Shown here one piece after another: positions 1,734-33,204 of a stretch of 64,000 bases of DNA; position 1 is the first letter of the stretch; each line of letters starts with the position of its first letter. The DNA comes from Fidelibacterota bacterium. GTDB lineage: Bacteria > Fidelibacterota > Marinisomatia > Marinisomatales > TCS55. The position numbers were made by a program, and so were the translations under genes. Location of the stretch: NCBI GenBank assembly GCA_004124385.1, contig SCKN01000002.1, positions 186,001 through 250,000 of the forward strand, in the 5' to 3' direction. Under the pieces are notes generated by a model. The model was not told the origin of the DNA. It ran no database searches and saw only the letters and a list, made by a program, of their open reading frames with translations.

Positions 1734-1822
1734 AGTGTTCACGTGTTACTGTGCTCACGCATTCAATATTCATTGATTTATTAACTGAAACACTCAAATA
1801 CATCAACACTCAAACACTTTTA
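1734..1822. repeat. Family C intergenic repeat (AGTGTT/AACACT array)
   Basis: The gap between menA and menC-menE is filled with direct and inverted versions of a short word. AGTGTTCACGTGTTACTGTG lies on the left. On the right two tandem versions of AACACTCAAA-like sequence run up to and over the menA stop codon (1820-1822). Left and right parts are in opposite orientation and could pair in RNA. The same word family recurs at 7369-7428 and 8220-8304. Confidence 0.6.
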
Positions 1823-2710
1823 GAAATTTATCCCAATAACAAATAGAATTGAAAATATAAAAGTGGTTATGGCTTGTTTTTTTAAAAATGGGTCAAAATT
1901 CTCAAAATCATTTCTCTTTTGAATGGATTGAACAAAACCAACAAAGATTGGGATAGTGATAGCAAATATATAATGAAAATAATTGGGACTCGGAAATACA
2001 AAAGTAATTGCCAGTAAAATTCCACCAAAGATTAGTGCCCGATGGTAGTCTTTTGCTTTTTCAATCCCGATTTTAACGACCAATGTGTTCTTTCCGGATT
2101 TTTTATCCGCTTCACAGTCCCGCATATTGTTGATATTGAGAACAGCCGTTGTAAATAGACCAATCGATGATGCGGGAAACAGTAAATCCCAATTCAAAGT
2201 ATGAGTGTGCAAAAAATAAGAGCCTAAAACTCCCAAAAAACCAAAAAACAAAAAAACAAAAATATCTCCCAATCCAGCATACCCATACGGGTTTTTTCCC
2301 ATAGTATATTTAACGGCAGCGCCCATAGCTGAAAGACCCAGAATAGCAAATAATCCCGCTTTTTTCAAATCCAACCCAATAGTGCCTTCATAAATGAGCC
2401 ACACACCAAACACAGAGCAGAACAACGCAATCACCCACATAATTTTCACCATTTCAGATTTGGTAATAAGTCCGGACTGCATAGTTCGATCGGGTCCAAT
2501 CCTTTCTTCATTATCCGTCCCTTTTACAAAGTCCCCATAATCGTTTGCCAAATTGGATAGTATCTGCAGAAAAAGAGTTGTAATCAACGCTAACCCAAAA
2601 ACGGTCAAATTAAATCCACCATCAGCATAGGCTAATCCACTTCCCATAATGATACAGGAAAAGGCTAATGGTAATGTTCGTAAACGAAATGCTTTAATCC
2701 AATTATTCAT
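1820..2710 (-). CDS. menA: 1,4-dihydroxy-2-naphthoate polyprenyltransferase MenA
   Basis: This integral-membrane UbiA-family enzyme transfers a polyprenyl chain to DHNA to give demethylmenaquinone. The first Asp-rich motif NLANDYGDFVKGTD and the second, NNMRDCEADKKSGKNTL, are both intact, with about eight or nine hydrophobic segments. The length of 296 residues is normal. I start at the ATG at 2710 (MNNWIKAF). An in-frame TTG at 2725 would add five residues, but those codons come from the adjoining A-family repeat. It lies between the fused menC-menE and the GxxExxY cassette, in the same direction as the rest of the cluster. Confidence 0.93.
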   Translation of the reverse strand: MNNWIKAFRLRTLPLAFSCIIMGSGLAYADGGFNLTVFGLALITTLFLQILSNLANDYGDFVKGTDNEERIGPDRTMQSGLITKSEMVKIMWVIALFCSVFGVWLIYEGTIGLDLKKAGLFAILGLSAMGAAVKYTMGKNPYGYAGLGDIFVFLFFGFLGVLGSYFLHTHTLNWDLLFPASSIGLFTTAVLNINNMRDCEADKKSGKNTLVVKIGIEKAKDYHRALIFGGILLAITFVFPSPNYFHYIFAITIPIFVGFVQSIQKRNDFENFDPFLKKQAITTFIFSILFVIGINF

Positions 2711-2714
2711 TATA

Positions 2715-2735
2715 TTTAGCCACAAAAGTCACAAA
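2715..2735 (+). repeat. A-family repeat, left arm of the GxxExxY cassette
   Basis: Contains TAGCCACAAAAGTCACAAA on the plus strand, opposite in orientation to the other men-cluster copies. It creates the spurious upstream TTG start of menA and abuts the stop of the GxxExxY gene. Confidence 0.6.
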
Positions 2736-3113
2736 TTAGTTAAGAATGTATTTTTTGTTTTGAAATTTAGATGAACCAAAATTGATGAGTAAATCATGCT
2801 CAATATTTGATGCTCTTAAATACCCCAATATTTGTGCAATGTGCTCATCTGCGATTGTTTTGCATGCTTTAATTTTTATGATTAAAATATCTTCAATAAA
2901 TAAATCAGCTATGTATTCACCAATAACGGTCCCATCTTGATCTTTAACCTGTAACGGATACTGGTGTTCAACCTTTAATCCCATTTTTGTTAGTCGACTA
3001 ACAAGAGCATTTTCATAGACTTTTTCCAAATGTCCGTGATATAGGTATTTATGAATATCAAATGATGTTTGCCTAATCATATCACAAAGATCATTTACAT
3101 TTTTATAATCCAT
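2736..3113 (-). CDS. GxxExxY family protein (PD-(D/E)XK-like fold), probably catalytically altered
   Basis: The 125-residue product carries the family signature GHLEKVY (GxxExxY) near residues 27-33. It then has the beta-strand pair EYIADLFIED and LIIKIKA expected for the PDDEXK_3-type core. In family members the second strand normally reads like VELKA, giving the D...ExK nuclease triad. Here the glutamate position is lysine (KIK), so the classical catalytic set looks incomplete. The function of the family is not established; a link to nucleic acid metabolism is inferred from the fold. The gene has no known role in menaquinone synthesis and is bounded by inverted A repeats. Confidence 0.85.
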   Translation of the reverse strand: MDYKNVNDLCDMIRQTSFDIHKYLYHGHLEKVYENALVSRLTKMGLKVEHQYPLQVKDQDGTVIGEYIADLFIEDILIIKIKACKTIADEHIAQILGYLRASNIEHDLLINFGSSKFQNKKYILN

Positions 3114-3136
3114 TCTTTACCTTTTTTAGTTATTTA

Positions 3137-3169
3137 TTTTTGTGTCTTTTGTGCCTTTTATGGCTATTT
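3137..3169 (-). repeat. A-family repeat, right arm of the GxxExxY cassette
   Basis: Plus strand reads TTTTGTGCCTTTTATGGC followed by TATTT, preceded by a second TTGTGTC word. It is the extended form of the repeat and overlaps the menB stop codon at 3168-3170. Confidence 0.6.
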
Positions 3170-3992
3170 AAGGAAATTTTGGATACTTCGAAAAATCCGG
3201 TTTACGTTTTTCCACAAAGGCATTCCGCCCTTCTTTCGCTTCGTCGGATAAATAATAAAGTAGCGTCGAATTCCCAGCCAATTCTTGAATACCCGCTTGG
3301 CCATCCAATTCAGCATTAAAGGATGATTTCAACAATCGAATGGCTAACGGAGATTTCTCTTGAATTTTCTTTGCCCAAGCAATAAAAGTATCTTCCAACT
3401 CTTCCAACGGAACCACCGTATTTACCAATCCCATGTCCAAGGCTTGCTCGGCATTATATTGGTCGCAGAGAAACCAAATTTCACGGGCTTTTTTCTGGCC
3501 CACGCTTCGTGCCAGATAAGATGCACCAAATCCACCATCAAAAGACCCAACTTTCGGACCGGTTTGGCCAAACATGGCATTGTCGGCTGCAATAGTTAAA
3601 TCGCATACTACATGAAGCACATGACCGCCACCGATGGACCACCCCGCCACTGCTGCAATCACCACTTTTGGGATAGATCGAATTTGCTTTTGCAGATCTA
3701 ACACATTTAGGCGCGGAACTTCATCCTTGCCCACATACCCGCCATGACCCCGAACGCTCTGATCTCCACCACTACAAAACGCTTTGCCCCCTTCACCGGT
3801 AAAAATGATCACATCAATATTGACATCCTCCCGGCAAATGTTCATGGCATCAATCATTTCTTTCACCGTCCGCGGGGTGAATGCATTATGCTTTTCCGGC
3901 CGATTGATGCTGATTTTGGCAATCCCTTCAAAGAAATCAAATTTGATTTCATTATATTCTCTAATGGTTTCCCAATTCTGTTTCCAATTCAT
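3168..3992 (-). CDS. menB: 1,4-dihydroxy-2-naphthoyl-CoA synthase MenB
   Basis: This crotonase-fold enzyme cyclises OSB-CoA to DHNA-CoA. At 274 residues it matches the family. Diagnostic segments are [17 protein letters not shown] (oxyanion-hole and flexible loop region), [17 protein letters not shown], and [12 protein letters not shown]. In the last segment a glycine occupies the position used for bicarbonate binding by the bicarbonate-dependent type of MenB. The C-terminal tail [16 protein letters not shown] is typical. The gene lies upstream of the GxxExxY cassette and downstream of menD. Confidence 0.95.
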
Positions 3993-4020
3993 AATATTCT
4001 CCTGTTTTTTGACATATGAA

Positions 4021-4103
4021 GCACAAAACGCACAAAAGCACTTTATGGTTTATGGCTATTCCTTTAATTTGATTTTGTATCTTCTGTGCCTTTTGTGGCT
4101 ATT
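4021..4103. repeat. A-family repeat pair at the menB-menD junction
   Basis: The left half reads GCACAAAACGCACAAAAG. The right half (4084-4103) reads CTGTGCCTTTTGTGGCTATT in the opposite orientation, giving a cassette-like inverted pair with no gene inside. The right half is translated as the last residues of MenD (IATKGTED). A second degenerate word (TTTATGGCTATT) lies between them. Confidence 0.55.
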
Positions 4104-5740
4104 TCTTTAAATGTTTCTGTGTTTATTTTCATGTCTGTAAATATTTCCAGGATGCACGATGACCATTCGCTTATTTCTTCTAATGATGTCGCTGAACGGT
4201 AATCCATATTGAATTCTTGCGCTGTAAGTTCTGCCGTGTGTTTATGGGGCGTAGTAAAAAGATGTGTGAGTCCATCTTGCTTCGACGGACCGGGGATCAT
4301 ATTAAAAATTCCACCACCGGAATCATTCAAAATAACGATTTGTAAGTTGGTTGGAAATTCATGATTCAGCCACAATCCATTTCGATCATAGAAAAATGAA
4401 AGATCACCAATAATCAATGTGTGTTTCCGATTCGGTTCTGCCAAGGCGTGTCCAACTGCGGTGCTAACTACGCCATCGATCCCAGATGTTCCACGATTAC
4501 ACCAAATATCAATAGTTGGATCATTTACGCCAATAAAATTGGCAATCCGAATGGGCATGCTATTCCCCAAATGAAGTACACTTTTTTCTGGTAATAGTTG
4601 AATCACTTTTCGAACCGCAGAAAAATAATTAAAACTTAATTCTTCTAATTCAGAGTTGAACTTTTGAATTACACTTTTCTGTTTATTTAAAAATAGAGTC
4701 AAATAATCGCTCTTCTCGTTTAATATTTTTGTGCCTTTTGTGGCTATTATTTTTACCCATTCTGTAAAAAATGTTATTGGTGTAGTCGCCAATGTTTTGG
4801 TTAATGATTGAAACGGATCCCCAACCATTCCTTCGCCAATGTGCCAATGAGTTTTTGGTTTATGTTTCCGTAAATAGAGTTTCAAGTTTTTGGAAATAAT
4901 AGATCGTCCAAATGTGATGAGAAAATCTGGTGCTAACAAATCATCCTTGGTATTAAAAATTAAACCAGAAGATTTAATTACATTTTCCACACCATGAAGA
5001 TTGGATATCACATCACCAACAACATTCACATCGAATTGATTGAGTATATCAACCAATTCTTTATTGGGCGCCATCTGCCCCCCCAAAATCATCACTTTTT
5101 CAGAATCATTCAACAATGATTCGAACTCATCCAAAACCGTTTTCCCAATTTTAGATATTTTTTCTTTCGTGAATCTTGTGCCTTTTGTGGCTATCTGAAC
5201 TTCTTCTAATGATTCTGGATAAAATGGCTCTTCAATAGGAATATTCAAATGCACCGGTCCCATCGCAGCTTCCAACGCTAATCCCAGTGCACTTCCCCCA
5301 ACATCCACATTTTCTTCATCATAAATAAAACTCCCTTTCACATGGGGTTCATATAATTTTTCTTGATGAATCGATTGGCCATCCCATTGATCTATCCATT
5401 CCGGTGGACGATCCGCTGTTAACACAATGAGTGGAACATGTTGGTAAAATGCTTCTGTTATAGCCGGAGCAAAATTCTGTGCAGCCGTTCCGGATGTGCA
5501 AACCAAAACAACAGGGTTACCCGATTGCTGGGCAAGTCCAAGCGCCATAAATCCAGCCGATCGTTCATCTGTCACAGAAATCGTTTCAATATTCGGATGT
5601 TTTCCAAATCCAATGAGCAAAGGTGCGCAACGAGATCCGGGACAAACCACTGCTTTTTCCACACCAAATTCAGCGCAAAGCCCAACTAAATCATAAATAT
5701 GTTGGGTGTTTTGTAAAACCAAAGAAATATCCGTCTTCAA
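4064..5740 (-). CDS. menD: SEPHCHC synthase MenD, with three repeat-encoded IATKGT insertions
   Basis: This thiamine-diphosphate enzyme condenses isochorismate with 2-oxoglutarate. Seen are CPGSRCAPLL and CTSGTAAQNFAPAITEAF in the N-terminal domain, and GTSGIDGVVSTAVGHALAEP then IIGDLSFFYDRNGLW in the cofactor domain. I choose the TTG at 5740: it overlaps the menF stop as TTGA and has GGAG five bases upstream. The longer frame back to 5830 would translate repeat DNA inside menF. The 558-residue product contains the hexapeptide IATKGT three times (near 182, 332 and 546), each encoded by an A-family repeat. The last copy forms the C-terminus. Whether these insertions are tolerated loops is not known, but the catalytic motifs are intact. 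Confidence 0.92.
   Translation of the reverse strand: MKTDISLVLQNTQHIYDLVGLCAEFGVEKAVVCPGSRCAPLLIGFGKHPNIETISVTDERSAGFMALGLAQQSGNPVVLVCTSGTAAQNFAPAITEAFYQHVPLIVLTADRPPEWIDQWDGQSIHQEKLYEPHVKGSFIYDEENVDVGGSALGLALEAAMGPVHLNIPIEEPFYPESLEEVQIATKGTRFTKEKISKIGKTVLDEFESLLNDSEKVMILGGQMAPNKELVDILNQFDVNVVGDVISNLHGVENVIKSSGLIFNTKDDLLAPDFLITFGRSIISKNLKLYLRKHKPKTHWHIGEGMVGDPFQSLTKTLATTPITFFTEWVKIIATKGTKILNEKSDYLTLFLNKQKSVIQKFNSELEELSFNYFSAVRKVIQLLPEKSVLHLGNSMPIRIANFIGVNDPTIDIWCNRGTSGIDGVVSTAVGHALAEPNRKHTLIIGDLSFFYDRNGLWLNHEFPTNLQIVILNDSGGGIFNMIPGPSKQDGLTHLFTTPHKHTAELTAQEFNMDYRSATSLEEISEWSSCILEIFTDMKINTETFKEIATKGTEDTKSN
4726..4748 (-). repeat. A-family repeat inside menD (second in-frame copy)
   Basis: Plus strand GTGCCTTTTGTGGCTATT preceded by five T. 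On the coding strand it reads ATA GCC ACA AAA GGC ACA, giving IATKGT within a linker-like stretch before the C-terminal domain. Confidence 0.7.
5176..5194 (-). repeat. A-family repeat inside menD (first in-frame copy)
   Basis: Plus strand TTGTGCCTTTTGTGGCTAT, translated on the coding strand as IATKGT near residue 182, at the end of the N-terminal domain. Same frame as the other two copies. Confidence 0.7.
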
Positions 5741-6918
5741 TTTTTCTCCGTGTCTCTGTGTCTCTGTGATAAAGTCCCCCCATTCATCACATCCAACAAC
5801 GTCTGGCATTTCAATGCTGTTTCTTCCCATTCTTTTTCAGGAACCGAATCATGTGTAATCCCAGCGCCCGCATAAAGCACAGCTCGTGTTCTTAAAATTT
5901 GCATACATCGAAGATTTACATAAAGCCGTGAAACGCCATCCAAATTCACTGGACCTAAATAGCCACTATAAAATTCACGATTCAAATATTCGTTGGCAGC
6001 AATGAACCGCAAAGCAGAAAGTTTTGGCATTCCACAAACAGCTGAAGTCGGGTGAAGTAAATTGAGCATCACTGTCCCCAATTCCGGGAAATGCACATTT
6101 TCCAAATCCACAGCATATTCCGTTTTCAAATGAATCATATTCCCAGCACGAACGGATCGTGGACCCGTTTCTTCAAATTCCCGTAATCGAATAGTCTTGA
6201 ATTGTTCAATTATGTATCTACTCACCATGGCCTGTTCTTCAATCTCTTTCTGATTCCATGCCGCTTCTGACAAATCTTTGTCCAATGGAAATGATTGAGT
6301 CCCCGCTACAGAGACTGTTCGAAAATGATCGGTTGACGACTCAGTTAATAGTTCAGGTGTCGCCCCCATCCAGGTCCCACGATTGGGTATGGAAACCAAA
6401 CTTACAAATGCATCAGGATAGGCATATTCCATTCGATTGAATTGATCAATAACATCAAAATTTTCCGGCAAAGGTTCATCATAAGTCCGGGCAGAAACCA
6501 CCTTATCAAATTCACCTTCTTCAATGGCTGAAATACCATCTTCCACCATCTGGATGAAGTGAGATTTTTCACCGGATATTTCCGTGTCTGGACGGTTATT
6601 CAAATGATATGATATTTTTTCATCTTTCTTCTCCGAATCACCGAGTCGCCGTGGTTCACCCTTTTCCACATCCCAATTTCCGTTTTCATCAGTGGTAGCA
6701 AAAATATCAACTTTTAAAAATAACGTTTCATTCCCTTCCGGATTCATAAATGGACTTACGATAAAACCAGATTCTGTATTTTGAAGATCGATGCGTCCTT
6801 TCGCCGGAAATTCAGAATAATCTGCAAGAAAATAGGCTTTTTCATCTCGCGGACACCGCCAAACCGCCACCGACCCATTCATAGCCATGGCACCGGACCA
6901 AAGTGATTGTAAGTTCAT
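5737..6918 (-). CDS. menF: Isochorismate synthase MenF
   Basis: Chorismate-binding enzyme of 393 residues that converts chorismate to isochorismate, the first committed step. Family segments are GTWMGATPELL, SVAGTQSFP, LLHPTSAVCGMPK, YLNREFYSGYLGPV and AGAGITHDSVPEKEWEET. Two stretches look repeat-derived: EPRRLGDSEKKDEK near residues 87-100, and the C-terminal SQRHRDTEKN. The N-terminal domain is short, as in other non-enteric isochorismate synthases. The stop codon overlaps the menD start (TTGA). A B-family repeat directly precedes the ATG. Confidence 0.93.
   Translation of the reverse strand: MNLQSLWSGAMAMNGSVAVWRCPRDEKAYFLADYSEFPAKGRIDLQNTESGFIVSPFMNPEGNETLFLKVDIFATTDENGNWDVEKGEPRRLGDSEKKDEKISYHLNNRPDTEISGEKSHFIQMVEDGISAIEEGEFDKVVSARTYDEPLPENFDVIDQFNRMEYAYPDAFVSLVSIPNRGTWMGATPELLTESSTDHFRTVSVAGTQSFPLDKDLSEAAWNQKEIEEQAMVSRYIIEQFKTIRLREFEETGPRSVRAGNMIHLKTEYAVDLENVHFPELGTVMLNLLHPTSAVCGMPKLSALRFIAANEYLNREFYSGYLGPVNLDGVSRLYVNLRCMQILRTRAVLYAGAGITHDSVPEKEWEETALKCQTLLDVMNGGTLSQRHRDTEKN
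5738..5770 (-). repeat. B-family repeat at the menF-menD junction
   Basis: Plus strand carries TCTCCGTGTCTCTGTGTCTC and continues TGTG. It encodes the last residues of MenF (SQRHRDTEKN). It also supplies the GGAG ribosome-binding site and TTG start of menD, so a repeat has been built into the coupling signal. Confidence 0.65.
6628..6660 (-). repeat. Degenerate B-family repeat inside menF
   Basis: Plus strand ends GCCGTGGTTCACC, matching the CCGTGGTTCAC end of the B copy at 6921-6946, with CTCCG and CCGAG words before it. Translated in frame as EPRRLGDSEKK. More diverged than the other copies, so the assignment is weaker. Confidence 0.4.
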
Positions 6919-6920
6919 TT

Positions 6921-6946
6921 TATTTCTCTGTGTCTCCGTGGTTCAC
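6921..6946 (-). repeat. B-family repeat at the menI-menF junction
   Basis: Plus strand CTGTGTCTCCGTGGTTCAC. It fills the whole gap between the two genes: one end overlaps the thioesterase stop codon (6943-6945), the other lies three bases from the menF start. Confidence 0.65.
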
Positions 6947-7359
6947 TTTTTATCAATCACAGCCAGTGTCAATCGACTCACTGCAACCAAATCATCATTG
7001 TCATTTTTAATTTCAATATTCCATACTTGAATCTTTTTCCCCAGTTTGATGGGTTTTGCTATCCCGTGAACCCAACCACTTCGAGCACTTCTTAAATGAT
7101 TACAATTAATTTCAATTCCCACGACCGTTTTACCTTCATGATCTACTTTCATCCCGCCCGCAATACTACCCAATGTTTCCGCCAATGCAGCTGATGCACC
7201 ACCATGAAGCAATCCAAAAGGTTGAATTGTCCTTTCGTCCACAGGCATTTTTCCGCAAATATAATCATCCCCAAAATCAGTAATTTTAATACCAAGGGAA
7301 TCCATCATTGTATTTTTTCCAAAGATGTTAATTTGTTCTATCTCTTTTTGTTTATCCAT
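6943..7359 (-). CDS. menI: Hotdog-fold thioesterase, probable DHNA-CoA thioesterase MenI
   Basis: 138-residue single hotdog domain of the PaaI/YdiI type. The active-site helix motif LLHGGASAALAETLGS holds the family's catalytic glutamate (AET). The glycine-rich turn and the C-terminal strand ending LTLAVID are normal. Its place between ubiE/menG and menF makes hydrolysis of DHNA-CoA to DHNA, the step after MenB, the likely role. The fold alone would also allow another acyl-CoA substrate. Confidence 0.8.
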   Translation of the reverse strand: MDKQKEIEQINIFGKNTMMDSLGIKITDFGDDYICGKMPVDERTIQPFGLLHGGASAALAETLGSIAGGMKVDHEGKTVVGIEINCNHLRSARSGWVHGIAKPIKLGKKIQVWNIEIKNDNDDLVAVSRLTLAVIDKK

Positions 7360-7368
7360 ATTCTTTTA

Positions 7369-7469
7369 TGTGTTTGAGTGTTTCTGTATTAAAGCGTTCA
7401 AATTCATGAACACTGAAAGTTTGAATTCATTTTAGTTTCTTGTTCATTTTGTGATTTTTGTGGCTATTC
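7369..7469. repeat. Family C plus A-family repeat between ubiE and menI
   Basis: 7369-7428 holds GTGTTTGAGTGTTTCTG, then GAACACTGAAAG in the opposite sense. 7443-7469 holds the A-family word TTTTGTGGCTATTCC, ending at the ubiE stop codon. The 110-bp gap is essentially all repeat. Confidence 0.55.
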
Positions 7470-8219
7470 CTATTTCTGCCCAATATATAAAGTGCAAACC
7501 CCAAAAGTTAGTGGAATAGCTTTGCAGTTTTTTAATCCCATGGATTCCATCAGTGCGAGAAATTCTTGACGCGTGGGAAAATTCATAATTGAATCAGCAA
7601 GATATTCATACGCGGCCGGGTTTTTTGTAAACCATTTTGCTAATTTGGGCAAGACGCCATTGAGATAAAAGCTATACACATTACGCCAAAACCCTAGTTC
7701 TGGCGTGGTGAGTTCTAATACCATAAGCTGTCCATCCGGAACAATAATTCGCTTCATTTCTGACAACGCTTTTTCCTTATCTGGAATATTACGAATTCCA
7801 AAAGCAATGGCCGTCACGTCAAAAGAATTGTCATCAAATTCAATCTGCGTAGCATCTCCCCATTTGAGCTCAACACGATTGTTCAGATATTGAGCGTCCA
7901 CTTTCTTCAACCCATTATTGACCATCTCTTGGACAAAATCAACTCCAGTAACATTCACTTCAGGATAAGTGTTGGCACAATCCAACGCCAAATCGCCTGT
8001 GCCTGTGGCCACATCTAAAAACCGATTAGTGTTAAAAAATTTCATTTCGAATACGGTGCGTTTCCGCCAGGCTACATCTTGACGTCCAGATAGAAATCGA
8101 TTTAAAAAATCATATTTATCAGTAACGGATGCGAAAATATCTTTCACAATCCCTATCCGTTGATCATCGCTCATTTCCTGAACAGATGGATATTCTTTTT
8201 GTTTTAATTCATTTTTCAT
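7470..8219 (-). CDS. ubiE: Demethylmenaquinone methyltransferase
   Basis: SAM-dependent C-methyltransferase (MenG/UbiE) performing the last step of menaquinone synthesis. The 249-residue chain has motif I FLDVATGTGDLALDCA, the acidic loop TGVDFVQEM, the post-I segment KWGDATQIEFDDNSFDVTAIAFGIRNI, and the UbiE-specific VPDGQLMVLELTTPE. UbiE can also act on ubiquinone precursors, but the surrounding men genes indicate menaquinone only. The gene is followed at both ends by repeats. Confidence 0.94.
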   Translation of the reverse strand: MKNELKQKEYPSVQEMSDDQRIGIVKDIFASVTDKYDFLNRFLSGRQDVAWRKRTVFEMKFFNTNRFLDVATGTGDLALDCANTYPEVNVTGVDFVQEMVNNGLKKVDAQYLNNRVELKWGDATQIEFDDNSFDVTAIAFGIRNIPDKEKALSEMKRIIVPDGQLMVLELTTPELGFWRNVYSFYLNGVLPKLAKWFTKNPAAYEYLADSIMNFPTRQEFLALMESMGLKNCKAIPLTFGVCTLYIGQK

Positions 8220-14718: not shown

Positions 14719-15504
14719 TTATTCTTCAGCAGCGTCTAATTCCTTGTTCCACTGTACAAATTCCAGATCGCCATCTTTGGATTGGTCAAACTCGAACATA
14801 TGAAATTTCCCATCTTTACGTACATTAATTTGCATACCCTCGGCCAGAGTAACCCATTCTTCAAGAGTTACTTCATAAGGACCGGATACTTGAGTAGGTG
14901 CTTTTATTTCTGTAACGGGGCCGAGTGTGAATTTTGGTTTTCCGGTTGGTGCTCCGGGGGCAAAGGATTTCCGTTTATCTTTGCGTTCGTCAATGATATT
15001 TTTAGCGGCATTCACGTCCACCTTGCCATCATATACCAATATCTCACTCTCATCCTCACCTGCTTTAGCTCGGTATTTTGTTCCTCGAATGGCCGCTACA
15101 GCAGTGGGCGTTCGTAATTGTATATTTTTCTTTTCTCCAAATGCTGCTTTTGCAGATACAAATACATTCCCTTTTTTCAGATTTACTTTAAAATTCTTTG
15201 TCATGGGCTTTACGTTTGCTTCATTCAATTCCAGTTCTGTTTTTTCACCCAATCTAATTTTTCCACCACCCTTAAGAGCAATTTCTGCACGAGATTTTGC
15301 AGCAGTTCTAATAATGTCTCCTTCAAATACCGGTCTGTTTGGTTTTGCTTTTTCCCACGTATCACTTCCAAAAGATTGGACTTCCACTTTGCCTAATGGT
15401 AGGGAGATTTTACCAAACTGTTTTCCAGCAGAATTAACATTTGATACAAAGACTATCATTACACATAATGCTAATAACGCTATAGATGAAGTGAGTTTTT
15501 TCAT
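14719..15504 (-). CDS. Secreted FecR-domain protein
   Basis: 261 residues with a signal peptide (MKKLTSSIALLALCVMIVFV, then cleavage near NSAGK). The FecR beta-domain covers about 50-170, shown by VFEGDIIRTAAKSRAEIALK, GGKIRLGEKTELEL and TPTAVAAIRGTKYRA. The C-terminal part is unassigned and acidic. The ATG overlaps the stop of the giant adhesin gene (TAATG), so the two are translationally coupled. FecR periplasmic domains usually sense or relay; here the partner is probably the CHASE2 cyclase downstream. Confidence 0.88.
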   Translation of the reverse strand: MKKLTSSIALLALCVMIVFVSNVNSAGKQFGKISLPLGKVEVQSFGSDTWEKAKPNRPVFEGDIIRTAAKSRAEIALKGGGKIRLGEKTELELNEANVKPMTKNFKVNLKKGNVFVSAKAAFGEKKNIQLRTPTAVAAIRGTKYRAKAGEDESEILVYDGKVDVNAAKNIIDERKDKRKSFAPGAPTGKPKFTLGPVTEIKAPTQVSGPYEVTLEEWVTLAEGMQINVRKDGKFHMFEFDQSKDGDLEFVQWNKELDAAEE

Positions 15505-18500
15505 TATTTAACCATTATCATCTTATTGGTTTTGTTCAAAATAACTTTGCCGGACATGTCCATAATCCTGGTTGCGTAAAAATAAACACCACTGGCAACT
15601 CGTTTACCATCACTGTTCAATCCTTTCCAGATGAAATTGTGATATCCAGCCGGGTACATTTCCCCACTTGTCATTCGAATTACTTCCTTACCTAATAGAT
15701 TGTATACAATCAAATCAACAGTGGCCATATCTTCAAGAGTAATCAGAATAGATGTCTGGGGATTGAATGGGTTCGGATAATTCTGACTAATGCTGAATTT
15801 GTCCGGATAGAGGTCTACACCTGCGTTATTTTCATTCACAAATGATTTCGTTCCGGCAATAAAGCGGATGTCGTGAATTGATTTTGAATTGCTCACAGCA
15901 TAGCGATATACCGGATTCCAGCGAAGGTCTTGTGCCACACCTAATGTAACATCAATTACAAATACATCGAAATCAGCAGGGATGTCTGAAATATCATCAA
16001 AATTAAGATATACGTTGTAGCGATCATCTTCAGCAGCAACTTCCATATCCCAAAATTCGCCGTCTTCTTTGACTGTGCGGATGTCTGTTGTATAAATATC
16101 CCCATGCTGGGCCCAATCGCGGTTATCAATGCGCAGGGAAATACCACCAGGCAGCATCGGCGGTTCAAAGGCATCCATATCATCATACTCGTCGCTGGCA
16201 GTGGTCAAGACACCAACGGTATTTAATTTGTCAACACCCAGCCCATTGCGGGCATTGATATCCACGAGCCATTCGTTTTCCAGTAGAACAATTTCCGTAT
16301 CGGTTATTTTCAGACCGCTGCTGCTCTTACTTGGCTTGATATAGAGTTGGTTAGCCGTGGCTGATTTATAAATATAACCTTTCCAAGGATCAAGTTTATT
16401 TGCTGATACCCAGCCATTGCTACCATCATATGTATAGAAATTAGGATCACTGGCGAGAGATGTACTGTCATTTATGAGTACATTTTCCAAAGGAATACTG
16501 AAATCAAAGGGGTTCCCCAGCATGACCCATTCGCCAGAGGTGAAATTTATCATGAAATCATTATCCGTCGATACTGTTTGGGTTTGTCCAGTGGTGATAT
16601 TCAATCCGGCATCCTTGACGATCAGGAAGTAGCCTACACCAGGATCAATATATTGGATCGAAGCAAATTCATTCCAGCCGCCGCCCGAGTAAGTGAAGAA
16701 TCGCCATTTTGTATCATCATAGGCCAGTAAATCGTCTACCAAAATATTTGTGGGTGTTGCACTGGCGGCCTGGCCAGGGAAGGATAATAGCTGGTAACTG
16801 GATTGACCTGAACCATTGGGAATACCGGTTGGCCAGCGGTCCGTACTCAATAGTCCATCCCCGGGGATTGTCACTGAAATTGAGTAATGACCTTGATCAG
16901 GTATATACGTCTCATTACCGGCAATATCGCGGGAATAAATATAATATTCCACCCCAGCTGATGTTACAAAGCTGCTAGTAATATTGTAGGTATTGGTTGA
17001 TTTCATATCTATCGGAGTCTGCCACTGAACTTCACCGCCCTTGCGATAATACAGTTCGGCTATATCAATTCCAGAAGCATCATCACTAAATGTTGCTGTG
17101 ATTGTTACCGATGAATTATCCGTGGCTTCTAAAACAGGGTTATGGGCAATACCAGGTTCAATATAATCCACATAGAAAGTTTGCGGGTTGCTGGTAACTC
17201 TTTCATTCCCGGAACTGTCAAAGGCAGATATAGTCCACGTATGAGTTCCAGCCGCAAATCCGTCAGGAAAATCAAAACCCGTAGAATCAGGATGCTGCTG
17301 GTATATACTGCCCTCATTTACATCCAGCTCGTAATATTGCAGTCCTGCAGTTGCATCAGATGACGCTTCCCATTCAAAGCGCAGGAATAAGGTATTGTAC
17401 CAGGCTTGTAATGGTGCAGTTACATCAAATACAGTTGGCGGTGTATCATCCCATTTAGCAACAATGGACTGTGCTGTGCCGCCGTCATCATTCCCAGAAT
17501 TGTCTTCCAGCCAGATATCAAATGTTGATGCATCATTGGCCGGCAAAGCCAAGCTGGTTAAGGTTGTAATATTCTGGCCTGTTATATATGTATCGTCGCT
17601 GCCGTTTATGCTGTAATGAGCACCGGCCACACCTGAATGTTCTGCGGGGTTTGACCAATTCAATGTAAAATCATTTACACTTGTCCACACATACGGGCTG
17701 ATAGCCAGATCGGAAACAGCTGCCGGTGCAATAACATCTTCAACGCGATAAATAACCGTATCATTTGCTGTGTTGTTATTAAATACAGATTCAACGACAA
17801 TATTAAAATCTATTTGAGATAACCATGGTGCTTCATTGTCGGCAGCAACAATGATGGAAGCAAGTCCGTTTGTTGTGCTATTATCTTCTTCACTTGTTGA
17901 GTAATCCGCTGTCGCAGAGGGGTTCCAATTCACCACGCTACCATCGGAAACATAATTTTCAAATTGATCCATAACCTGGATTTCCAGTGTATCAATTTGA
18001 CCTTGGACTACATACATAGTATCAGGAATGTCTGCAATGATGGTTGTAGGTGCGCCAGGAAGAACCATGATGACTTCTGTCGTATCATTTAAACTGGCAG
18101 TATTATCAACCCACACTCTCACCCTATAGAAAGCACCTGCAATAACATCTGTCGTTAACACATTGGTTGCTATCCCACTTACATTAGTAGAAGTTGTGTC
18201 TTGTAATAAAGTGTTTTCCAGATATCCTTCAGCACCCTCAACAATTGACCAGAAAACAGGAACTTCCTCTAACGCATTGTCAAAAGTATCAATAATAGTA
18301 ACCTCAAGAGGCACTGTATTTTGATCTGCTTCCGGATTTCGTTCATAAGTATCTGTAATAGTGAGATCAAATGGATCATCAGGAACAATCGTAATTGTAT
18401 TGCTTATCACCATGGATGCTGAACCGGATGTGACTTCAATAGTTACAGTGGTACCTAGCACAGCTGATGGATTAGTATTAATTATATTGGTGGTAATCCC

Positions 18501-21500
18501 GTCAGTAGTAGATGATGCACTTAAATTCAGGGAAATTCCAGCTGACGCAGGTTGTATTGCCCAGTCTATGTTAGTACCGTCAGATACCAAATTGTTATTT
18601 TGATCATAAACTGTTACACTAATGTTTAATGATTCATACTGTGTCATCACCGTATCATTTGCCAAATCGAATACAAACGAATCACTGGCTCCTGGAATAA
18701 CATGAATCACAGCTGTGGTATCATCCAGGTCATACACAGAATGATCACGGTTCGAATCATCATTTTCTGAAGGTGGATTATTAAGAATTCTCAAGGGAAC
18801 TGATACTATTTGTATTTCACTAAATGTGGGTGTTTTTCCACTTAACCCGTTTTTTCTACTTGTGGAAAATGCAGGTTGCTGAAATGGTGTATTCAAATTT
18901 CTATTTTGACCATTCGTACCCATAACTGCAGATAAGAGAGCGCCATCCGTTACCCAGCCATGAACAGTATAATCACTTCCGGATACTACAGATGTTGTTA
19001 AATCAACAAAAGCAATTCCATTTACGTTAGTCATTGACGAAGTAACACTCAAACTTTCGCCTGTTCCATTTCCAGTCACCACTTCCCAATTCACTTCAAC
19101 ACCCACTAAAGGATTGTCAAATGTATCAATTAACGCCGCTTCTATATATATAGTCGCCACATCAGCCGATAAATCAATTTGTGTTTCAGTCAATTCAGTT
19201 GGCATAGCCAGATTAAAAATATCATCGGGCATGATGGTAATAACAGCACTTTGGTGAGTACCTGTTCCCGATGTTGCAGAAATACTAACTTGATCACCCA
19301 CCGCTAGACTGTTCCCTGTCGGGTCCGTATTTAAAGTAACATTTGCTAAACCACCTTGGGTGGATGTAGTAGAATTGTCCAATGTGAACCCATCCCCACT
19401 CCCTACAACAGGAACAATATCCCAAGCAACTATTTCATTATCGGCAACAAAATTATTGAATTGATCAAATATATTGGCTTCAAATACTAAAGAGCCCAAC
19501 TGTGTTATAGTCATATCTGTTTGCTCATTTATCCAAACAGAATCAGGATTGCCAGGAACAATTTTAAAATATCCGCCTTGTGCTGTCGCACCACTTTCAT
19601 CTACTGAAATGGAGTTTAGATCATGTGTAACGGTGGTGGTATAAAATGTATTACTTACCTTACCGCTTAAATTTGCACCATAGGTTGTTTCGCTGGCAAA
19701 TGTACCGTGTTGATTGCCGGCGCTGCCCCATTGAATTGTGGGGTTTGTCATATAGTGACCAATTGTATTGAAAATCTGTACTTCTACATCAAGACCAGAT
19801 CCAACAACTGAACCAGTGTCAGGATTGATAGATATTGTATCGCCAAATGCTGGATATAGAACAACTGCAATATCAGAAATATATCCTGTTTGATCATGGT
19901 AAAAACTTCCTGCATCTGCATATGTATAATCAGGATCAATCCAATTTTCAGTTGTGTCTAAATCAATTGCAGCAGCCGTACTCAATAAGGTAAAGTCACC
20001 ATTTGAATAATTAACGAATTGATCTGTACTACTTGTAAACGATCCCGTTTCATTAAGTGTACCACTTCCGGAAGTGCTGCCCTCAAGTATTGAGTAATTT
20101 AATTCCACTGTTCCGCTGTTTACTTCCAAAGATGTACTGTTATCATTCCCGGCAATTGTAACATGTTCAATGGTAGCATCACCATTAATCGTTAACGGTA
20201 TAAACGCTGCGCCGACATCCTGAATGACCATATAATAATAACTGTCATTATGACTTATTCCATCTGTACCGGAATTAATAATGACTCCGCCATAACTGGA
20301 ATCAGGGTCTGTGCTTTGGAAAATAACGGGATCCCCCGCTTCGCCACTGGCCGCCATAACACCATCAATTATCAGGGTTACGCCGGGCTCAAAATATAAA
20401 TCCGAACCAGATTCTATAAATAATGTATCGTCTTCTGCCAGAGTAAAATCTTGGGTTATAACAACTGATTCATCACTTGTCACATTCACGTTTCCAGTGG
20501 ACGTGCCAGCGAGGAATTCACGAATCAATGGGAATGCGCCCATATCAACGATAGTGCTGTCAATATCATATGTAGATGCAGGATTACCCGAATCAATACA
20601 GGGGCTTGTAATCTGCAGACCAAAATCACCATTGCCTGCATCAATAAAATCCGGATCATCATTAATATTCCCTGTTCCGGTATAATCCCCCTCTATATCA
20701 GAATATGTAATTGTGGGTGCACCGTATGTGGCAGCTGTATTGTTCCAAAGAATGGAATTCACTGCTGAAACTGTACCGGATGAATTATTATATATTCCAG
20801 TTGCATTGTCATAGATCGTCAAATTAATCATATAGGCATTCGCTGAATTATTAATTGTAATGCCACCATAATTGGAATTTGTGATCAACAGGTTATTCAT
20901 GGTTACCGTAGCATCATTGTTGATCTGCAAGACATCACTGGTACCATTCACATTGGACAGGTGCAGATCATATAGAGTCGGTGAACCGCCATTTATTTCA
21001 AAAAAGCCATCAATATTTATATCACTCGCAATTCCGTTGCCTACAATGAGAAGGTCTTTTTCCCAGTTATTGAGCGATTCACTATAAGATCCGGGTGAAA
21101 TATGAATCTCATCATCATAAATTCCATGATTCATTGCAAACTGGATTGAGCCAAAGGGATCAATTTCAGAACCCATTCCAGATCTAGCTGAATCTGAACC
21201 GGTGGTAGATACAAACCAATATTGTCTCGTATAAGTTCCTGGGGCATCAAGTGTGTTTTCGAAAGCACCCATATCCGGAATACTTTCGGATCGAACATTG
21301 CCCTCTATATCATAAAGTATCCCCGTAGCAGAGCTGGCCTGACCAATAACGGGTGACCAGTCCTGTAATTGGAAATCACCATTAAATCCATCCACAAATC
21401 CGGGGCGGCCGTTATAATTACCCGTGCCTGAATTTCCACCCATGACATCTGAATAAGTGACAGAAATTCCACTATCCACATTGCTATTCCCCCAGAGAAT

Positions 21501-24500
21501 GGAATTGGTTATAGTTATACCACCGCTGAAGCTAACGCCATCATCGCCCTTGTTGCCCACAGCTGTGGCAAAGTCCACAATGACAGAACCACCGCTTACA
21601 GCCATGATGGCCGATTCTGCAGCATTATTACCTACAAAAACACAGTTTAAGAATTCTGAATTCGAGTTTGTTGCATATACTGCACCGCCACTGGTTGAAG
21701 CGTAATTATCTTTAAAAATAACACCTTCAAAGATGGGATCAGCACCATCAATATATACAGCACCGCCGTTTTCGGCTGCACCTTTTTTAATAGTGATACC
21801 AGAAATAATGGTGGAGTCTGTCTCGCCATTTTCCAGAATGAAGGCCTGGCCCATATTCTCACAATCAATGATCGTTGTTGCAGCGCCATCCGTGGAGCGG
21901 ATGATGCGGTCCACGCCGTTAAAGTTCAGATCCCTGTTGCCAGCACCGGCATAGGTACCGCTGGCCAATTCAATGGTATCCCGGATCACGGATTTATTGA
22001 ATGCTTCAGCAAGAGACAGCAAAGGATTAGCGGTTGAAAGACCGTCGTTTCCATCATCGCCATCTGTTGCAAGATAAAAGACCTGACGGCGTTGTTCCCA
22101 GCGGGCGTGTTCTATGGGGCCCAAGTCGATATGTGAATCAGCCGGTTGGACGCGAGTGTTGCCCAGATAATCAGTAGTTAACTCTTCAGATAATATTACA
22201 TCTTCATCTAATGCATTGGAGTAGAATTCATCTAAACCAAGTCCAATAGCCGGTGAATATTCATCTAAGGCATAATCGCTAGTATCAGCCGTTAGAATAC
22301 TGGTCGGATCGAAAACATAATTATCTCCCGTATTAAATGCCGGGCTGTTAACCGATTGCAGGATACAGTGATCAGCATAAACATCACTTGAACTTATGTC
22401 AGCATTATCAGTTCCGCCGTTATTGGTATTGTTGATGAAAATACTATTAACTATTTCTGTGTTTTCATTTCCCATAATATTTATTCCGCCGGCGCCCCAG
22501 GATTGCTGGCCAACATTATCCAAAAATAATGAGTTTACTACTATCAGATTTGTTGAATGGTCTTGATTAATGGCGCCACCTACATTATTGGCAGTATTAT
22601 TAATAAATATACAGTTCAACACATACAATTCTGATCCATCCTGTTCAAATGCAATGGCTCCGCCTCTTTCATTTGCAAAATTACCTTTAAATAATGTATT
22701 CATAACTGTAACCGGGTCAACTGTGCCGGATATGTAGATTGCGCCACCACCATTGAATGAATTATCTGAATTATTTTCAAAAACACAGTTTTTGATCTCC
22801 ACACTTGAATACCATATACGTATTGCGCCGGAACCGCTGTTGGAAATGGTAAGTCCTTCAATCCTGGAATCTGATTCCCCGCTTTGAAGGTCAAGGAAAT
22901 CATTGCCATCCACATCAATAATGGTGGTATCAGCACCGTATTTACCCATCAGGGTCAGGTCTTTTACCCCATTTTGCATTACATCATTTTGGTATTGAAA
23001 ATCCAAATTACGGTTTTTTGAATGATCATAGGTCCCCGGCATAAGCATGACGGTGTCGCCATCTGCAGATTCTTCAATGGCATCGCGGATGTATTTCATG
23101 GGGTCCTCCGGGCTGCCTTCGCCGTTGGAAGCGCCATTATTCACATCAACAATCCACACAGGCCCTTGGTAGAATGGAGATGTTTTTTCTTGAAAAGATG
23201 CTGCACTTTCATAGTCGGCTGTATCAATTGCTGTTACATAGAACCAATAGTCTGTTCCATTATTTAAATTATCGATGGTTGTACGAGTATTGAACCGTCC
23301 TTCCACTGTATCAATAGCCGTAAAGGCAATGGAATCCTCACCCATGTAAGCGATATAACTGGTCACATCCTCTTCTTCATGATAATCCCATTCTAACTGT
23401 ACAGAACGATGGAGGGGTGTTGCAGTCAGATCTTCCACTATTGACGGATAGGGAGTTACAGCCAACTCATGTTCATAGGCACCCAGGTCGGGATTGGAAC
23501 CGGTTGGATTAGGACGAACATTTCCAGCAATATCACCAGCCGGAGCATAAATAGGATCACCTTCTGTATCTTCACTTTCCGTTTCACCGGCACCGATAGC
23601 TGGTGAACGCTCATGGAGAACGTATGTTGTATCCGCAAAGTCGGGATCAACATCTAAAACACCATCTTCAAAATCATTAACATCTTCACCTTGAATGATG
23701 GAATATGAAACATAATGGCTTACGTTTGCCCAATCATCTAGATGTAGTTGATTATCCATGGGAGTGTTTCCAAAAATAATGCTGTTTTGTACATTTAATT
23801 TTGTATCATTTCCACTACCATCACTGGACACAAAAATCCCCGAGCCACCTTCTGTTTGATTGCTATTGTTTACATTCTCTACAATTGTTGAATTAATGAT
23901 TGTTGCTGTACCGCCTCTGACAGCAATACCAGCACCACGTGAATTATAAAATGATCCTGAAGTTGCTGTATTTCTAGCAATTATTGAATTAACAACGATT
24001 AAATTATTATCACTAGACCAACTCATATAAATTCCCGCACCTGAAGCATCGTTACCAGCCGTAAGAGAATTATCTACTATTTTAGTTCTGATTATATTTA
24101 AATCACTTCCTTCACTCGCCCAGATTGCTGCACCTTCTCCTGAATAACTTGGTTTTAAAACATGATTATTTTCTATAGTACAATCTTCAAATCGAACATT
24201 TGCACTAACCAAATAGATTACAGGATCTTCTGCTGGATTTGCCTCCGTACCATTCTCATTAAAAATACATTCTTTAAATACTGCACCTGATGGGTTGTAT
24301 TCATATTGCTGGGTATTAATATTCCACGTTTGTTGTCCCTCAACTTTGATTGCGTTACCCATACCATCATTTTCACCGCCACCAGTAACGGTAAATCCAA
24401 TAATCTGTAATGTGGTATCTGTACCGTCCACAATTTCAAAAAGTCGCTTACTTCCTTCACCATCTAATATAGTTGTTGCAGCTCCATCTCGAGATTTAAG

Positions 24501-27500
24501 TACAAGATTTTTTGGTTGACCGTCAAGTGTGCCACTCGTGTATTTAAAATAGAGTTCTTGATCATCTCTTCGGTCATATGTGCCGGGCAGGACTAATACT
24601 GTGTCGCCAGCAGCGGCTAAATCAATAGCATCCTGGATTTCACGCACAGGTTCTTCCGGGCTGCCTTCTCCGCCCGAACCAGCTGATTCGTCTACATACC
24701 AGACAGGTCCCTGGAAAAAAGGCGATGTTTTTGTATGAAAGGATGGTAGACTTTCATAATCAGACGTATTGACCGCTGTGACATACAACCAGTAATCTTC
24801 ATTATTAGTTAAGCTGTCTAGGGTTGTATTCCCTGTAAACCGGCCGGCTACAGTATCCACAGCAGTGAATGTAATAGAGTCCTCGCTTATATAGGCAATA
24901 TAGCTGTCTACATTATTTTCTTCATGGAGATCCCATTCTAAAAGCACAGATTTATGCAGCGGTGTCGCAGTGAGATTTTCAACTGGTGCTGGGTAAAGTG
25001 TTACAGCCAGTTCGTGCTCGTAAGCACCCAAGTCAGGATTGGACCCCGACGGATTTGGACGGGCATTTCCTGCTAAATCATTTCTAGGGGCATAAATGGT
25101 TTCACCTTCAGCATCAACGCTTTCTGTTTCACCAGCGCCGATGGCCGGACTGCGTTCATGTAACACATAGGTTAGATCAGTAAAATCGGGAACTATATTC
25201 AATAAAATCTCATCACCGCCTAAATCATCACCACCGCCGAATAGGGAATAGGAAGCATACATATCCACACCATCATTATTAGAATTATCTGCATATATCT
25301 GATTATTATGGTCGGTCATGGGAGAAGAAGAGGCATTTGTAACTATGGTATTTCCATAAACAATACTGTTAAATATGGTCAATTGTGGTGAGTCGCCATC
25401 CTGGTTCCAGTCTCCTCCTTCAATAGCACTGCCGCCATTAGTCCAACTATCATTGGTACTTATTTGGTTATCGGCAATGGTACAATTGATAAGTTGTATT
25501 TTTCCACCCTGGAATTTTATACCGCCTCCTCCTGTCTGATAGCCGCCAAATGTACTGTTGTTATCAACTAAATTACCAGCAACGATTGTGTTTACCAGTT
25601 TTACATTGTGTTCATTACTGCCGCCAATTCCTATAGCACCACCATATATATTACCATTCGAAGACGTTGTGACTATATTATTAACCAGGTTTGAACGATA
25701 AAAATGAACTGTGCTGCCGCCTTCTGACCCTTCGTTACCAACTCTAACGGCGGCGCCTAAGCCGTCACCACTGTTACTGTAATCAGCAGTATTATTAGAC
25801 AGTTCACAGTCAATGAAAACAGCGTTTCCATAATACACTTCTACGGCTGAATCTTCGCCGTCAACATCTTTGATTAAACAATTCTTGAATGTGGCGCCTG
25901 AATATGTAATAATCTCCTGATTGCCCTGCGAATGGGATTGACCGTGGACCTTGATCACTGATCCTTCACCATCATTTTCACCGCCGTCACTGGCTGTAAT
26001 AGTAAAGCCAATGATCTGCAGTGTTGTATCGGTGCCGTCTACAATTTCAAACACACGCTTAGTTTTTCCATCAAGAATGGTGGTTGCGGCACCGTCCCTG
26101 GATTTAAGCACCAGATTTTTGGGCTGTCCATCGTAAGTACCGCTAGTGTATTTAAAATAGAGTTCTTGATCATCACTTCGGTCATATGTGCCGGGCAGGA
26201 CTAATATAGTATCCTTGAGTCCATCATTTCTGGATGAAGGATCTACTGCATCAATGGCGTCTAGAATTTCTCTGTAAGGAGCGGCCGGCGATCCATCTGC
26301 AGAACTTCCTGCCAAGCCATTTACTTCATCCACATACCAGATCGGGCCAGACCATTTGGGTTCACCTGAAACTTCATTCGATTTTGAAGATTCATAGCCA
26401 TCCAGATCCACTGCACTTACAGCAAAATAATAGGTGGTATAGTTATCTAATCCTGTGGCGGTGTAGGAGGGTGTACCGGAAACACTGTCCAGCAATGTAG
26501 CCGCTGTAGATGTGCCGTAATAAATACGATATTTAGAAAGGTCATCTTCTGTATTGGCTGTCCAAGACAACGTTATTGTTGAGTCCCCTTCTGCAGACAC
26601 AACAAGATTCTGTGGCTTGGAGGGAAAGGGTGTGGTTGACAGGCTATTTTCAAAAGCACCTAAATCCGGATCAGAGCCGTCAGGATTTGGACGAGAATTA
26701 CTATTATAATCAAAGGCAGGTGCATCAATACCTTCAAACTCATCAATACCGGCACCAATGGCAATACTGGAGGTAGCTAAAGAATAGTCGCCATTGCCCA
26801 CAAAACCTGGATCAGTATCCACAAGATCGTCTTCTTCCAAACCTGTTTCGGAGAAAAATTCAATGAGCGAATAATCTATCAATGCATCATTATCACCATA
26901 TGCATTATTGTAGGTTGACAAGTTCATGCGATAATTCTCTGATTCCATGTATCCTTCAATCTCATTATCATAAATAATGGAATTGAAAATGACTGTACTG
27001 TGATTTTCACTATCGTTACGATTGATCCCGGCTCCACCAACATTGTTAAAATATTCAGAAATGTTATTAATAGTATTATCTGCAATGGTACAGTTTACTA
27101 TGCGGAGTTCCGGATCATGAGAGGGATTGCCGCCTTGTCCAAAAGCATGAATATCCGTCCGATAACAAATCGCTCCGCCCTGGGCATTGCTCCCGTCTTG
27201 GTTATCAGCTAATTCACCGTTCAATTCATTATTAGTTATAACGGTGTTTATAAAACTTACTGCCGGATACTGTGTATGTATTCCGCCCCCATAAATTTCA
27301 TCAGCTTTCACACTATTACCGCTGATAGAACAATTCACAAAGCGGATATATTCTCCCCTGGATAAATAGTTGCTTAAGAAGATTGCGCCGCCAAATCCGG
27401 CATCGCGGTTTCCAGGCCTTCCACTTTCTATATCCACGGTATTGGAATCAATACGGGTATTCTCAAAATAAGGAATTGCACCAAAACCTACTGCGATAGC

Positions 27501-32462: not shown

Positions 32463-33204
32463 TTATTCCTCTTCAGCCATTAGTTCATCGATGAGGGCAG
32501 ATAATTCGCCCTCAAGATCCTCATCTTCGTGGAATCCCTGTCTGGCTTCCCGAATTATCTGAAATTTATCGATGACAAAGAGACGAGGCAATGTTTTTGC
32601 GCCATAGCGTTCTTTTGCCACTCCCCGGTTATCGTACAAAATTGGTATGGTAATACCCTTTTCGGCTAAAAAGGGTCCCGCTTTGGGCGAATTCTCATTT
32701 TCCCCTGTGCGGGTGGCTTCGGTGATATCCACCAGAAAAAATTTGACCTTTTCATTTTTATAGGCTTGAAAAACATTTTCAAGATGGGGTAATTCTTTCA
32801 TACAGGGCACGCACCAGGTAGCAAAAAAACTCAATACCACGGGGTAGCGATCCGGCTGGGACATGAATTTGCGCAAATTTTTGTCCCGCTCTACCGTCCA
32901 GTTTTTCAAAAATTCAAATTTCCCAGGGGCATACATAAGTGCCCAAGACGGTGCTAAGTCACCGGCTTTTAAGCCTGGATCCTTGGTTGTATCATCCGGT
33001 ACAGCAGCAATTTCCCCCACTTCTTGGGCAATGCCAAGTGATTGGTTGTATCATCCGGACAGCAGCAATTTCCCCCACTTCTTGGGCAATGCCAAGTGAT
33101 TTGGTTGTATCGTCCGGTACAACAGCCACCTCGCCCACACCCTGCGTAAAACCAAGGCTGGTAGAAATCAATAAAATACTTATCCATTTAATCATATTGT
33201 TCAC
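32463..33204 (-). pseudogene. Secreted TlpA-like thioredoxin, frame broken in a 60-bp tandem repeat
   Basis: The signal peptide MNNMIKWISILLISTSLGFT starts at 33204. The thioredoxin domain (FFATWCVPCMKELPHL, with a CVPC redox pair, and KTLPRLFVIDK with the cis-proline) lies in another frame, ending at 32463. Between them is an array of SLGIAQEVGEIAAVPDDTTK units. Units one and two on the plus strand are 59 bp instead of 60, so two single-base losses put the domains out of frame. As written, either a 70-residue exported peptide or a leaderless 185-residue domain would be made. Family role: membrane or periplasmic thiol-disulfide exchange. Confidence 0.75.
32983..33160. repeat. Three-copy 60-bp tandem repeat in the TlpA-like gene
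   Basis: Copies start at 32983, 33042 and 33101, each with TTGGTTGTATC(A/G)TCCGG. The first two are nearly identical apart from one missing base each; the third is diverged. Encodes a Pro/Asp-containing linker between signal peptide and thioredoxin domain. Confidence 0.85.

Follow-up and report, generated by a model that had tools for sequence, protein, structure and literature searches.

The window, a stretch of 64,000 nt, carries a menaquinone cluster in which all genes lie on the minus strand and which includes menD and a small gene for a GxxExxY protein, the latter bracketed by two inverted repeat arms with which it forms what we call a cassette (Table 1). Residue numbers of MenD are counted from window position 5737 and refer to a protein of 557 residues; translation likely starts at the TTG near 5740, with an in-frame ATG at 5830 as a possible alternative. 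Apart from the repeats described below, the window contains another family of inverted repeats, made up of units of the AACACTCAAACAC type, at 1777-1817 and 7370-7410, close to the two ends of the men cluster; a 5083-aa open reading frame with internal repeats at 15504-30755 (146-nt units that are 81% alike at 24460 and 26068); and, at 33001-33101, a 43-nt sequence present in two exact copies at a spacing of 58 nt and in a third copy that is degenerate.

Table 1. Genes and repeat copies of the men cluster, in window positions
Feature	Position	Strand	Remarks
menA	1820-2725	-	
GxxExxY cassette, downstream arm TTAGCCACAAAAGTCACAAA	2716..2735	+	inverted, points at gene; just ahead of likely menA ATG
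GxxExxY protein gene (TIGR04256 / PF13366 PDDEXK_3)	2736..3113	-	between menB and menA
GxxExxY cassette, upstream arm ATAGCCATAAAAGGCACAAAAGACACA	3141..3167	-	points at gene
menB	3168-3992	-	
S4 palindromic unit, second inverted arm	4018..4041	+	shortly past menD stop codon; RNA fold and motif scan
menD (SEPHCHC synthase)	4064..5740	-	TIGR00173 E=2.2e-105; best PDB relative 2x7j (MenD), E=3e-71
MenD site S4, first arm of palindromic unit	4085..4102	-	read as IATKGT (residue 546); C terminus 7 residues longer
MenD site S3	4730..4747	-	single arm, read as IATKGT (residue 331); loop 4 to 5 residues longer
MenD site S1	5177..5194	-	single arm ATAGCCACAAAAGGCACA; IATKGT at residue 182; inter-domain linker, length unchanged
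isochorismate synthase (menF)	5737-6918	-	
CACAGAG-subtype repeat, menF-menD junction	5744..5770	-	encodes isochorismate synthase C terminus ...TLSQRHRDTEKN
CACGGAG/CACAGAG repeat	6920..6947	-	upstream of isochorismate synthase gene; motif scan
hotdog thioesterase	6943-7359	-	
degenerate copy ATAGCCACAAAAATCACA	7450..7467	-	directly after menG/ubiE-type methyltransferase stop codon
menG/ubiE-type methyltransferase	7470-8219	-	

A scan of the window finds the 18-nt sequence ATAGCCACAAAAGGCACA in three exact copies within menD, all on the minus strand, which is the coding strand of the gene, and at up to 3 mismatches the window holds 7 matches where shuffles predict 0.05. An earlier note on this DNA had described three in-frame copies that each give the hexapeptide IATKGT, and this holds: the copies are exact 18-mers read in one frame, at residues 182, 331 (332 in the note) and 546. 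That they are insertions, as the note had put it, is borne out at S3 and at the C terminus, where the protein is longer than its repeat-free orthologues, but not at S1, where 44 residues separate the anchors compared with 45 in repeat-free MenD; these loop lengths rule out S1 as a clean insertion. In an AlphaFold2 model of MenD the repeat sites are coil of low confidence (pLDDT below 50 for residues 184-195 and 550-557, mean 56 for the block 331-340), which is consistent with flexible linkers and a flexible tail. The repeat-lacking orthologues that were checked (in the related genomes G002, G051 and G038) have no IATKGT at S1-S3, and the model and the comparison of sequences together support the proposal that the peptide is derived from a DNA repeat tolerated at surface-type sites. 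The S4 unit is a full palindrome that spans the stop codon, with a fold of -23 kcal/mol for 4012-4106 on the minus strand (z=-3.8) and a z of -4.5 for its counterpart in G006, whereas the single arms at S1 and S3 (z -2.1 and -1.1) fold no better or only slightly better than shuffles.

In this genome, all good copies of the repeat lie in the operon. Beyond the three copies in menD the exact core ATAGCCACAAAAGGCACA occurs nowhere in the whole 2.09 Mb genome, and all 8 genome copies of CCACAAAAGGCACAAAA at up to 2 mismatches lie at C4:188720-193463, corresponding to window 2720-7463 (4.74 kb, men operon), with two of the eight bracketing the GxxExxY gene as inverted, inward-pointing arms. The excess of the peptide in other proteins that the note had expected is thus absent from this genome, and the analogy that it had drawn to Rickettsia palindromic elements (RPEs), in the sense of peptide insertion across the genome, is not supported. 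In relatives, too, the copies are mostly intergenic. One further repeat of the operon, at ~5744-5770, is read as protein, supplying the C terminus of isochorismate synthase (...SQRHRDTEKN). A comparison with Rfam assigned the repeats to no family and gave one sub-threshold chance match.

The protein encoded between the arms belongs to TIGR04256 (107.4 bits, cut-off 35), a family listed as PDDEXK_3 in Pfam and as GxxExxY in NCBIfam. Its model has a pLDDT of 90.6; a sequence-based search of the PDB returned no relatives, while a fold search with the model gave weak matches to PD-(D/E)XK exonucleases and Cas4-like proteins, with a best E of 1.1e-3. No close relative was matched among 50,697 phage records and 8 plasmid records. 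The catalytic ELK reads KIK in the window copy (IIKIKA vs ELKA in relatives), and because the catalytic Glu is replaced by Lys, this nuclease is probably no longer active; to judge from its sequence it is probably a decaying relic, whose membership of the family nevertheless stands. With G000 denoting the genome of the window and the other G numbers denoting genomes of the same order, the men-locus genes in G000, G013 and G037 are orthologues of one another (62-81% identity, the next best being about 41-43%), which makes the men-locus cassette old, and the orthologues in G013 and G037 keep ELK. G022, G006 and G010 have arms in MenD and no GxxExxY gene in the men-locus stretch examined, so that in these genomes either gene loss must be assumed or the arms came from elsewhere.

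Across the MenD orthologues of related Neomarinimicrobiota, four common loop sites are occupied by repeats in some species and empty in others, and the arm subtypes differ. S1 (residue ~182) is repeat-like in seven genomes, with the subtypes GCCACAAAAGGCACA, GCCACAGAGACGCGAAG, ACCACGGAGATATGGAG and AACGCAAAGGCGCAAAG depending on the species; S2 (~residue 269) carries a repeat in G037, G022, G006 and G010 and none in G000; S3 (~331) is occupied in G000, G029, G022 and G037; and S4, at the C terminus, in G000, G037, G022, G006 and G029, while G051 and G038 have a palindrome there that is related. With the repeat present, the distance between anchors grows from 25 to 33-44 residues at S2, from 51-52 to 54-56 at S3 and from 14 to 19-22 at S4, and at S1 it is increased in G037 (62 residues), unlike in G000. 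At three of the four sites the unit is a lone arm some 20-30 nt long, and arms within a genome resemble one another, those of G000 and G037 being all ATKGT-type and those at S2 and S3 of G022 both PTKHT-type. A second kind of insert (GCACCCGCCTTCGTTCCACTACGGACGGGCAGGC-like) is fused to an ATKGT arm at S1 of G037 (L149) and at S2 of G010 (L150).

All 21 arms counted in the MenD of nine genomes are in sense orientation and in the phase NCC|ACN, although only about four independent placements stand behind this fixed frame, since the sites are shared by descent. The six readings of an arm are IATKGTK, a stop and SHKRHK in the sense direction and FCAFCGY, FVPFVA and LCLLWL in the antisense direction; the sense frames are the hydrophilic ones. 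Given these six readings, one of them with a stop, copies that survive within a gene are expected to be sense and hydrophilic. The fixed frame is real, but selection for the peptide itself is unneeded, as selection against bad readings explains it. The earlier observation is confirmed and its interpretation partly supported.

Outside genes, the family is better represented: in relatives it is mostly intergenic. Seven of 20 matches to the AAAAGGC subtype in relatives fall in men loci and 13 outside them, by which exclusivity of this subtype to the men locus is ruled out. In G037, a 116-bp unit with an AAAAGGC arm exists in two copies that are 95% identical, on different contigs and between unrelated flanks (L268 on C95, L270 on C143).

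The arrangement of arms around the GxxExxY gene recurs far beyond this order. We collected 80 loci of relatives from GTDB genomes, whose record titles include Spirochaetota, Geobacteraceae, Verrucomicrobia, Chloroflexi, Planctomycetes, Bacteroidetes, Acidobacteria, Proteobacteria, cyanobacteria and the archaeon Methanoperedens. In the 100 bp nearest the gene on either side, the repeat motif reaches densities of 8.3 (upstream) and 7.6 (downstream) per kb, compared with ~0.06-0.2 beyond 800 bp, an enrichment of ~80-fold, and within 200 bp it points inward in a ratio of 80:12 upstream and 58:12 downstream. The two arms of a locus also match each other, with a mean score of 20.2 for own pairs vs 10.4 for cross pairs (0 of 10,000 permutations), and they do so even where the units are not of the CAC kind (CGCGGAG at L070, CGCAAAG at L131, CACAGATT at L118). 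Matched arms at a score of at least 15 flank 53 of 75 GxxExxY loci, as against 1.4% of 145 control ORFs on the same contigs; about a fifth to a third of the loci have no clear arms under the scoring used. The arm tests treat loci as independent and some loci share an insertion slot, so these p-values are optimistic, though the effect size is very large nonetheless. In the 61 genomes of the order, the gene and CCACRRARRCACRRA tend to be present together (22/5/4/30, OR 33, p=4e-8; control pattern p=0.55), and gene and repeat counts correlate (rho 0.73).

Identity between paralogues of one genome is mostly 37-58%, which gives no sign of recent bursts. In a Bacteroidaceae group, copies of the ~40-nt arms recur elsewhere in the same genomes. 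At some loci (L081, L093, L094, L103) a whole arm-arm hairpin, and not a single arm, stands on either side of the gene, an arrangement that may reveal the relation of units with a gene to those without one. No published account of an arm-bracketed GxxExxY gene was found in a search of the open-access literature, and we provisionally regard the architecture as undescribed so far.

Comparison of related species shows the cassette to be present in some and absent in others. In one Prevotella slot, flanked by what we take, from our own reading of the flanking protein sequence, to be two methylmalonyl-CoA-mutase-type genes, a few species hold the cassette and most have a spacer of 4-20 nt, and spacers of this length are likewise found in Prevotella and Bacteroidaceae relatives where others hold a cassette. 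In one species (L199) the same Prevotella slot is occupied by a GxxExxY gene of another lineage, whose arms are of the CGCAGAG kind. Relatives in Methylotenera whose flanks are 96-98% identical, presumably trpE- and trpG-type genes by our reading, have no cassette, and a comparison of filled with empty sites finds the native ~54-nt spacer wholly replaced by it. Neither in this comparison, which is the sole site with close relatives, nor in the Prevotella slot was a target-site duplication found. It is from such presence and absence between species, at the level of sequence, that we infer transposition of the cassette.

A second family behaves similarly. Of 30 loci with PF05635 genes (L331-L360), 20 have matched inverted arms at a score of at least 15 (18.1 for own vs 8.8 for cross pairs; 0 of 10,000 permutations), built of 7-8 nt tandem units (AGGAGTTA, TTGAAGG, TAGTTAC and others) that are unrelated to the GxxExxY units. 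At L307 (1925-2311), in a Bacteroidaceae relative, a PF05635 gene bracketed by other, matched inverted arms occupies the slot that GxxExxY holds elsewhere.

Taken together, we propose that the IATKGT codons of menD are stray flanking arms of a GxxExxY cassette long resident in the men operon, which were absorbed at tolerant sites of MenD; we put the probability of this reading at roughly 0.7. Against it stand the MenD arms of G022, G006 and G010, the AAAAGGC copies outside men loci, the missing target-site duplication, the divergence of paralogues and the loci that have no clear arms. Such a cassette would consist of one small PD-(D/E)XK-type nuclease gene and inverted arms of two to four ~8-10 nt units each (CACAAAAGG here; CACAGAG, CGCAAAG and others elsewhere), would enter spacers between genes with its two arms matching, and would also leave solo arms and short arm-arm palindromes scattered. 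In this Neomarinimicrobiota lineage, solo arms would have landed in, or overwritten, two inter-domain linkers, one loop and the C terminus of MenD, presumably from the local cassette and not from another, and would have persisted there because arms on the sense strand are read as short hydrophilic peptides free of stops. The nuclease may drive the spread: it could, for instance, cut hairpins formed by the arms, or the target DNA, and repair could then copy an arm into the gap. Entry by break repair or template copying, as opposed to cut-and-paste, is suggested by the lack of a duplication, by the replaced spacers and by S1, which was replaced without a change in length. The MenD case would then be a lineage-specific and probably passive domestication of repeat arms.

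The same copies could have arisen by local duplication or gene conversion, in which one arm was copied round the operon by slippage, template switching or conversion and the GxxExxY gene had no part. The confinement of the copies to the operon fits this, as do the shared orientation and frame of all MenD copies, the likeness of copies within one genome and the missing catalytic Glu of the resident nuclease. Local duplication nevertheless leaves unexplained both why repeats bracket GxxExxY genes in many bacterial and archaeal phyla and why sister species carry different subtypes at the same MenD site, and we hold it to be unlikely. That the arms serve the men operon as functional hairpins of RNA or DNA, such as terminators or mRNA stabilisers, with the MenD peptides as a side effect, appears quite improbable: while folding is good for the S4 unit and its counterpart in G006, and repeats stand at many men gene junctions, the S1 and S3 arms barely fold better than shuffles, if at all, Rfam has no such family, and orthologues exist that are free of the repeat.

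A selfish repeat of the RPE kind, spreading as coding sequence into many proteins of the genome, would account for an in-frame, stop-free repeat peptide at coil sites of an enzyme. It would not account for a genome in which all good copies lie within 4.7 kb, for a family that is mostly intergenic in relatives, or for the single arms that three of the four sites in MenD hold where ~150-bp palindromes would be expected, and is in our view very improbable. Convergence of ordinary MenD sequence on similar codons by chance could be argued from S1, where no net length was gained; against three identical 18-mers, with 0.05 expected for matches of all kinds, and against repeat-free orthologues without IATKGT, it deserves virtually no credence.

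The reading of stray cassette arms gives a concrete origin, in the arms of nuclease cassettes, to short repeats and to repeat-derived peptides such as ATKGT, TTKAQRH and RHRDTE, which turn up in annotated bacterial proteins with no known explanation. For the orphan families GxxExxY and PF05635, their role becomes directly testable, and the MenD sites present an enzyme with an indispensable-looking role that takes repeat DNA into its linkers in a way specific to the lineage; we consider the cassette architecture more interesting than the individual finding in MenD. More tentatively, and with somewhat less than even confidence, GxxExxY and PF05635 may both represent a general class, as yet undescribed, of selfish cassettes with one gene each and with matched inverted arms of short tandem units, whose sequence differs freely from cassette to cassette. 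Such cassettes would replace spacers by way of a nuclease or of repair, without a transposase or target-site duplication, and whose stray arms would seed short repeats over many phyla and could be domesticated as protein linkers.

Several known systems share parts of this picture. Repetitive extragenic palindromes (REP/BIME) are short repeats, solo or in inverted pairs, that are mostly intergenic and tied to a small gene for the REP-associated tyrosine transposase RAYT, flanked by the same repeats. The GxxExxY gene likewise lies between inverted copies of a short repeat that is also found solo, but it is of the PD-(D/E)XK type and not a Y1 HUH transposase, and its arms consist of ~8-10 nt units in tandem, with a sequence that varies, whereas REP is a palindrome tagged by GTAG/CGTC. 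As in MITEs and small IS elements, a single gene lies between terminal inverted repeats, with gene-less palindromic derivatives and a preference for intergenic sites; unlike them, the cassette has no known transposase or detected target-site duplication, and the spacer is replaced, not split. RPEs are palindromes of about 150 bp, in ten families, in many unrelated genes (review PMC10969869). Like them, the arms in menD add repeat-derived peptides in frame to a housekeeping enzyme, free of stops and at apparently tolerated sites. The arms here are, however, of 18-30 nt, in one gene and one operon and with an associated nuclease gene, so that neither the many unrelated proteins nor the palindromic unit of ~100-150 bp that define RPEs is seen, S4 alone being palindromic. 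The men-locus gene is a member of TIGR04256/PF13366, for which we found no description of flanking arms in the open-access literature. The genes for 23S rRNA intervening-sequence proteins (PF05635) are likewise flanked by matched, inverted arms of short units, in a protein family and with unit sequences that are unrelated to those of the GxxExxY cassette.
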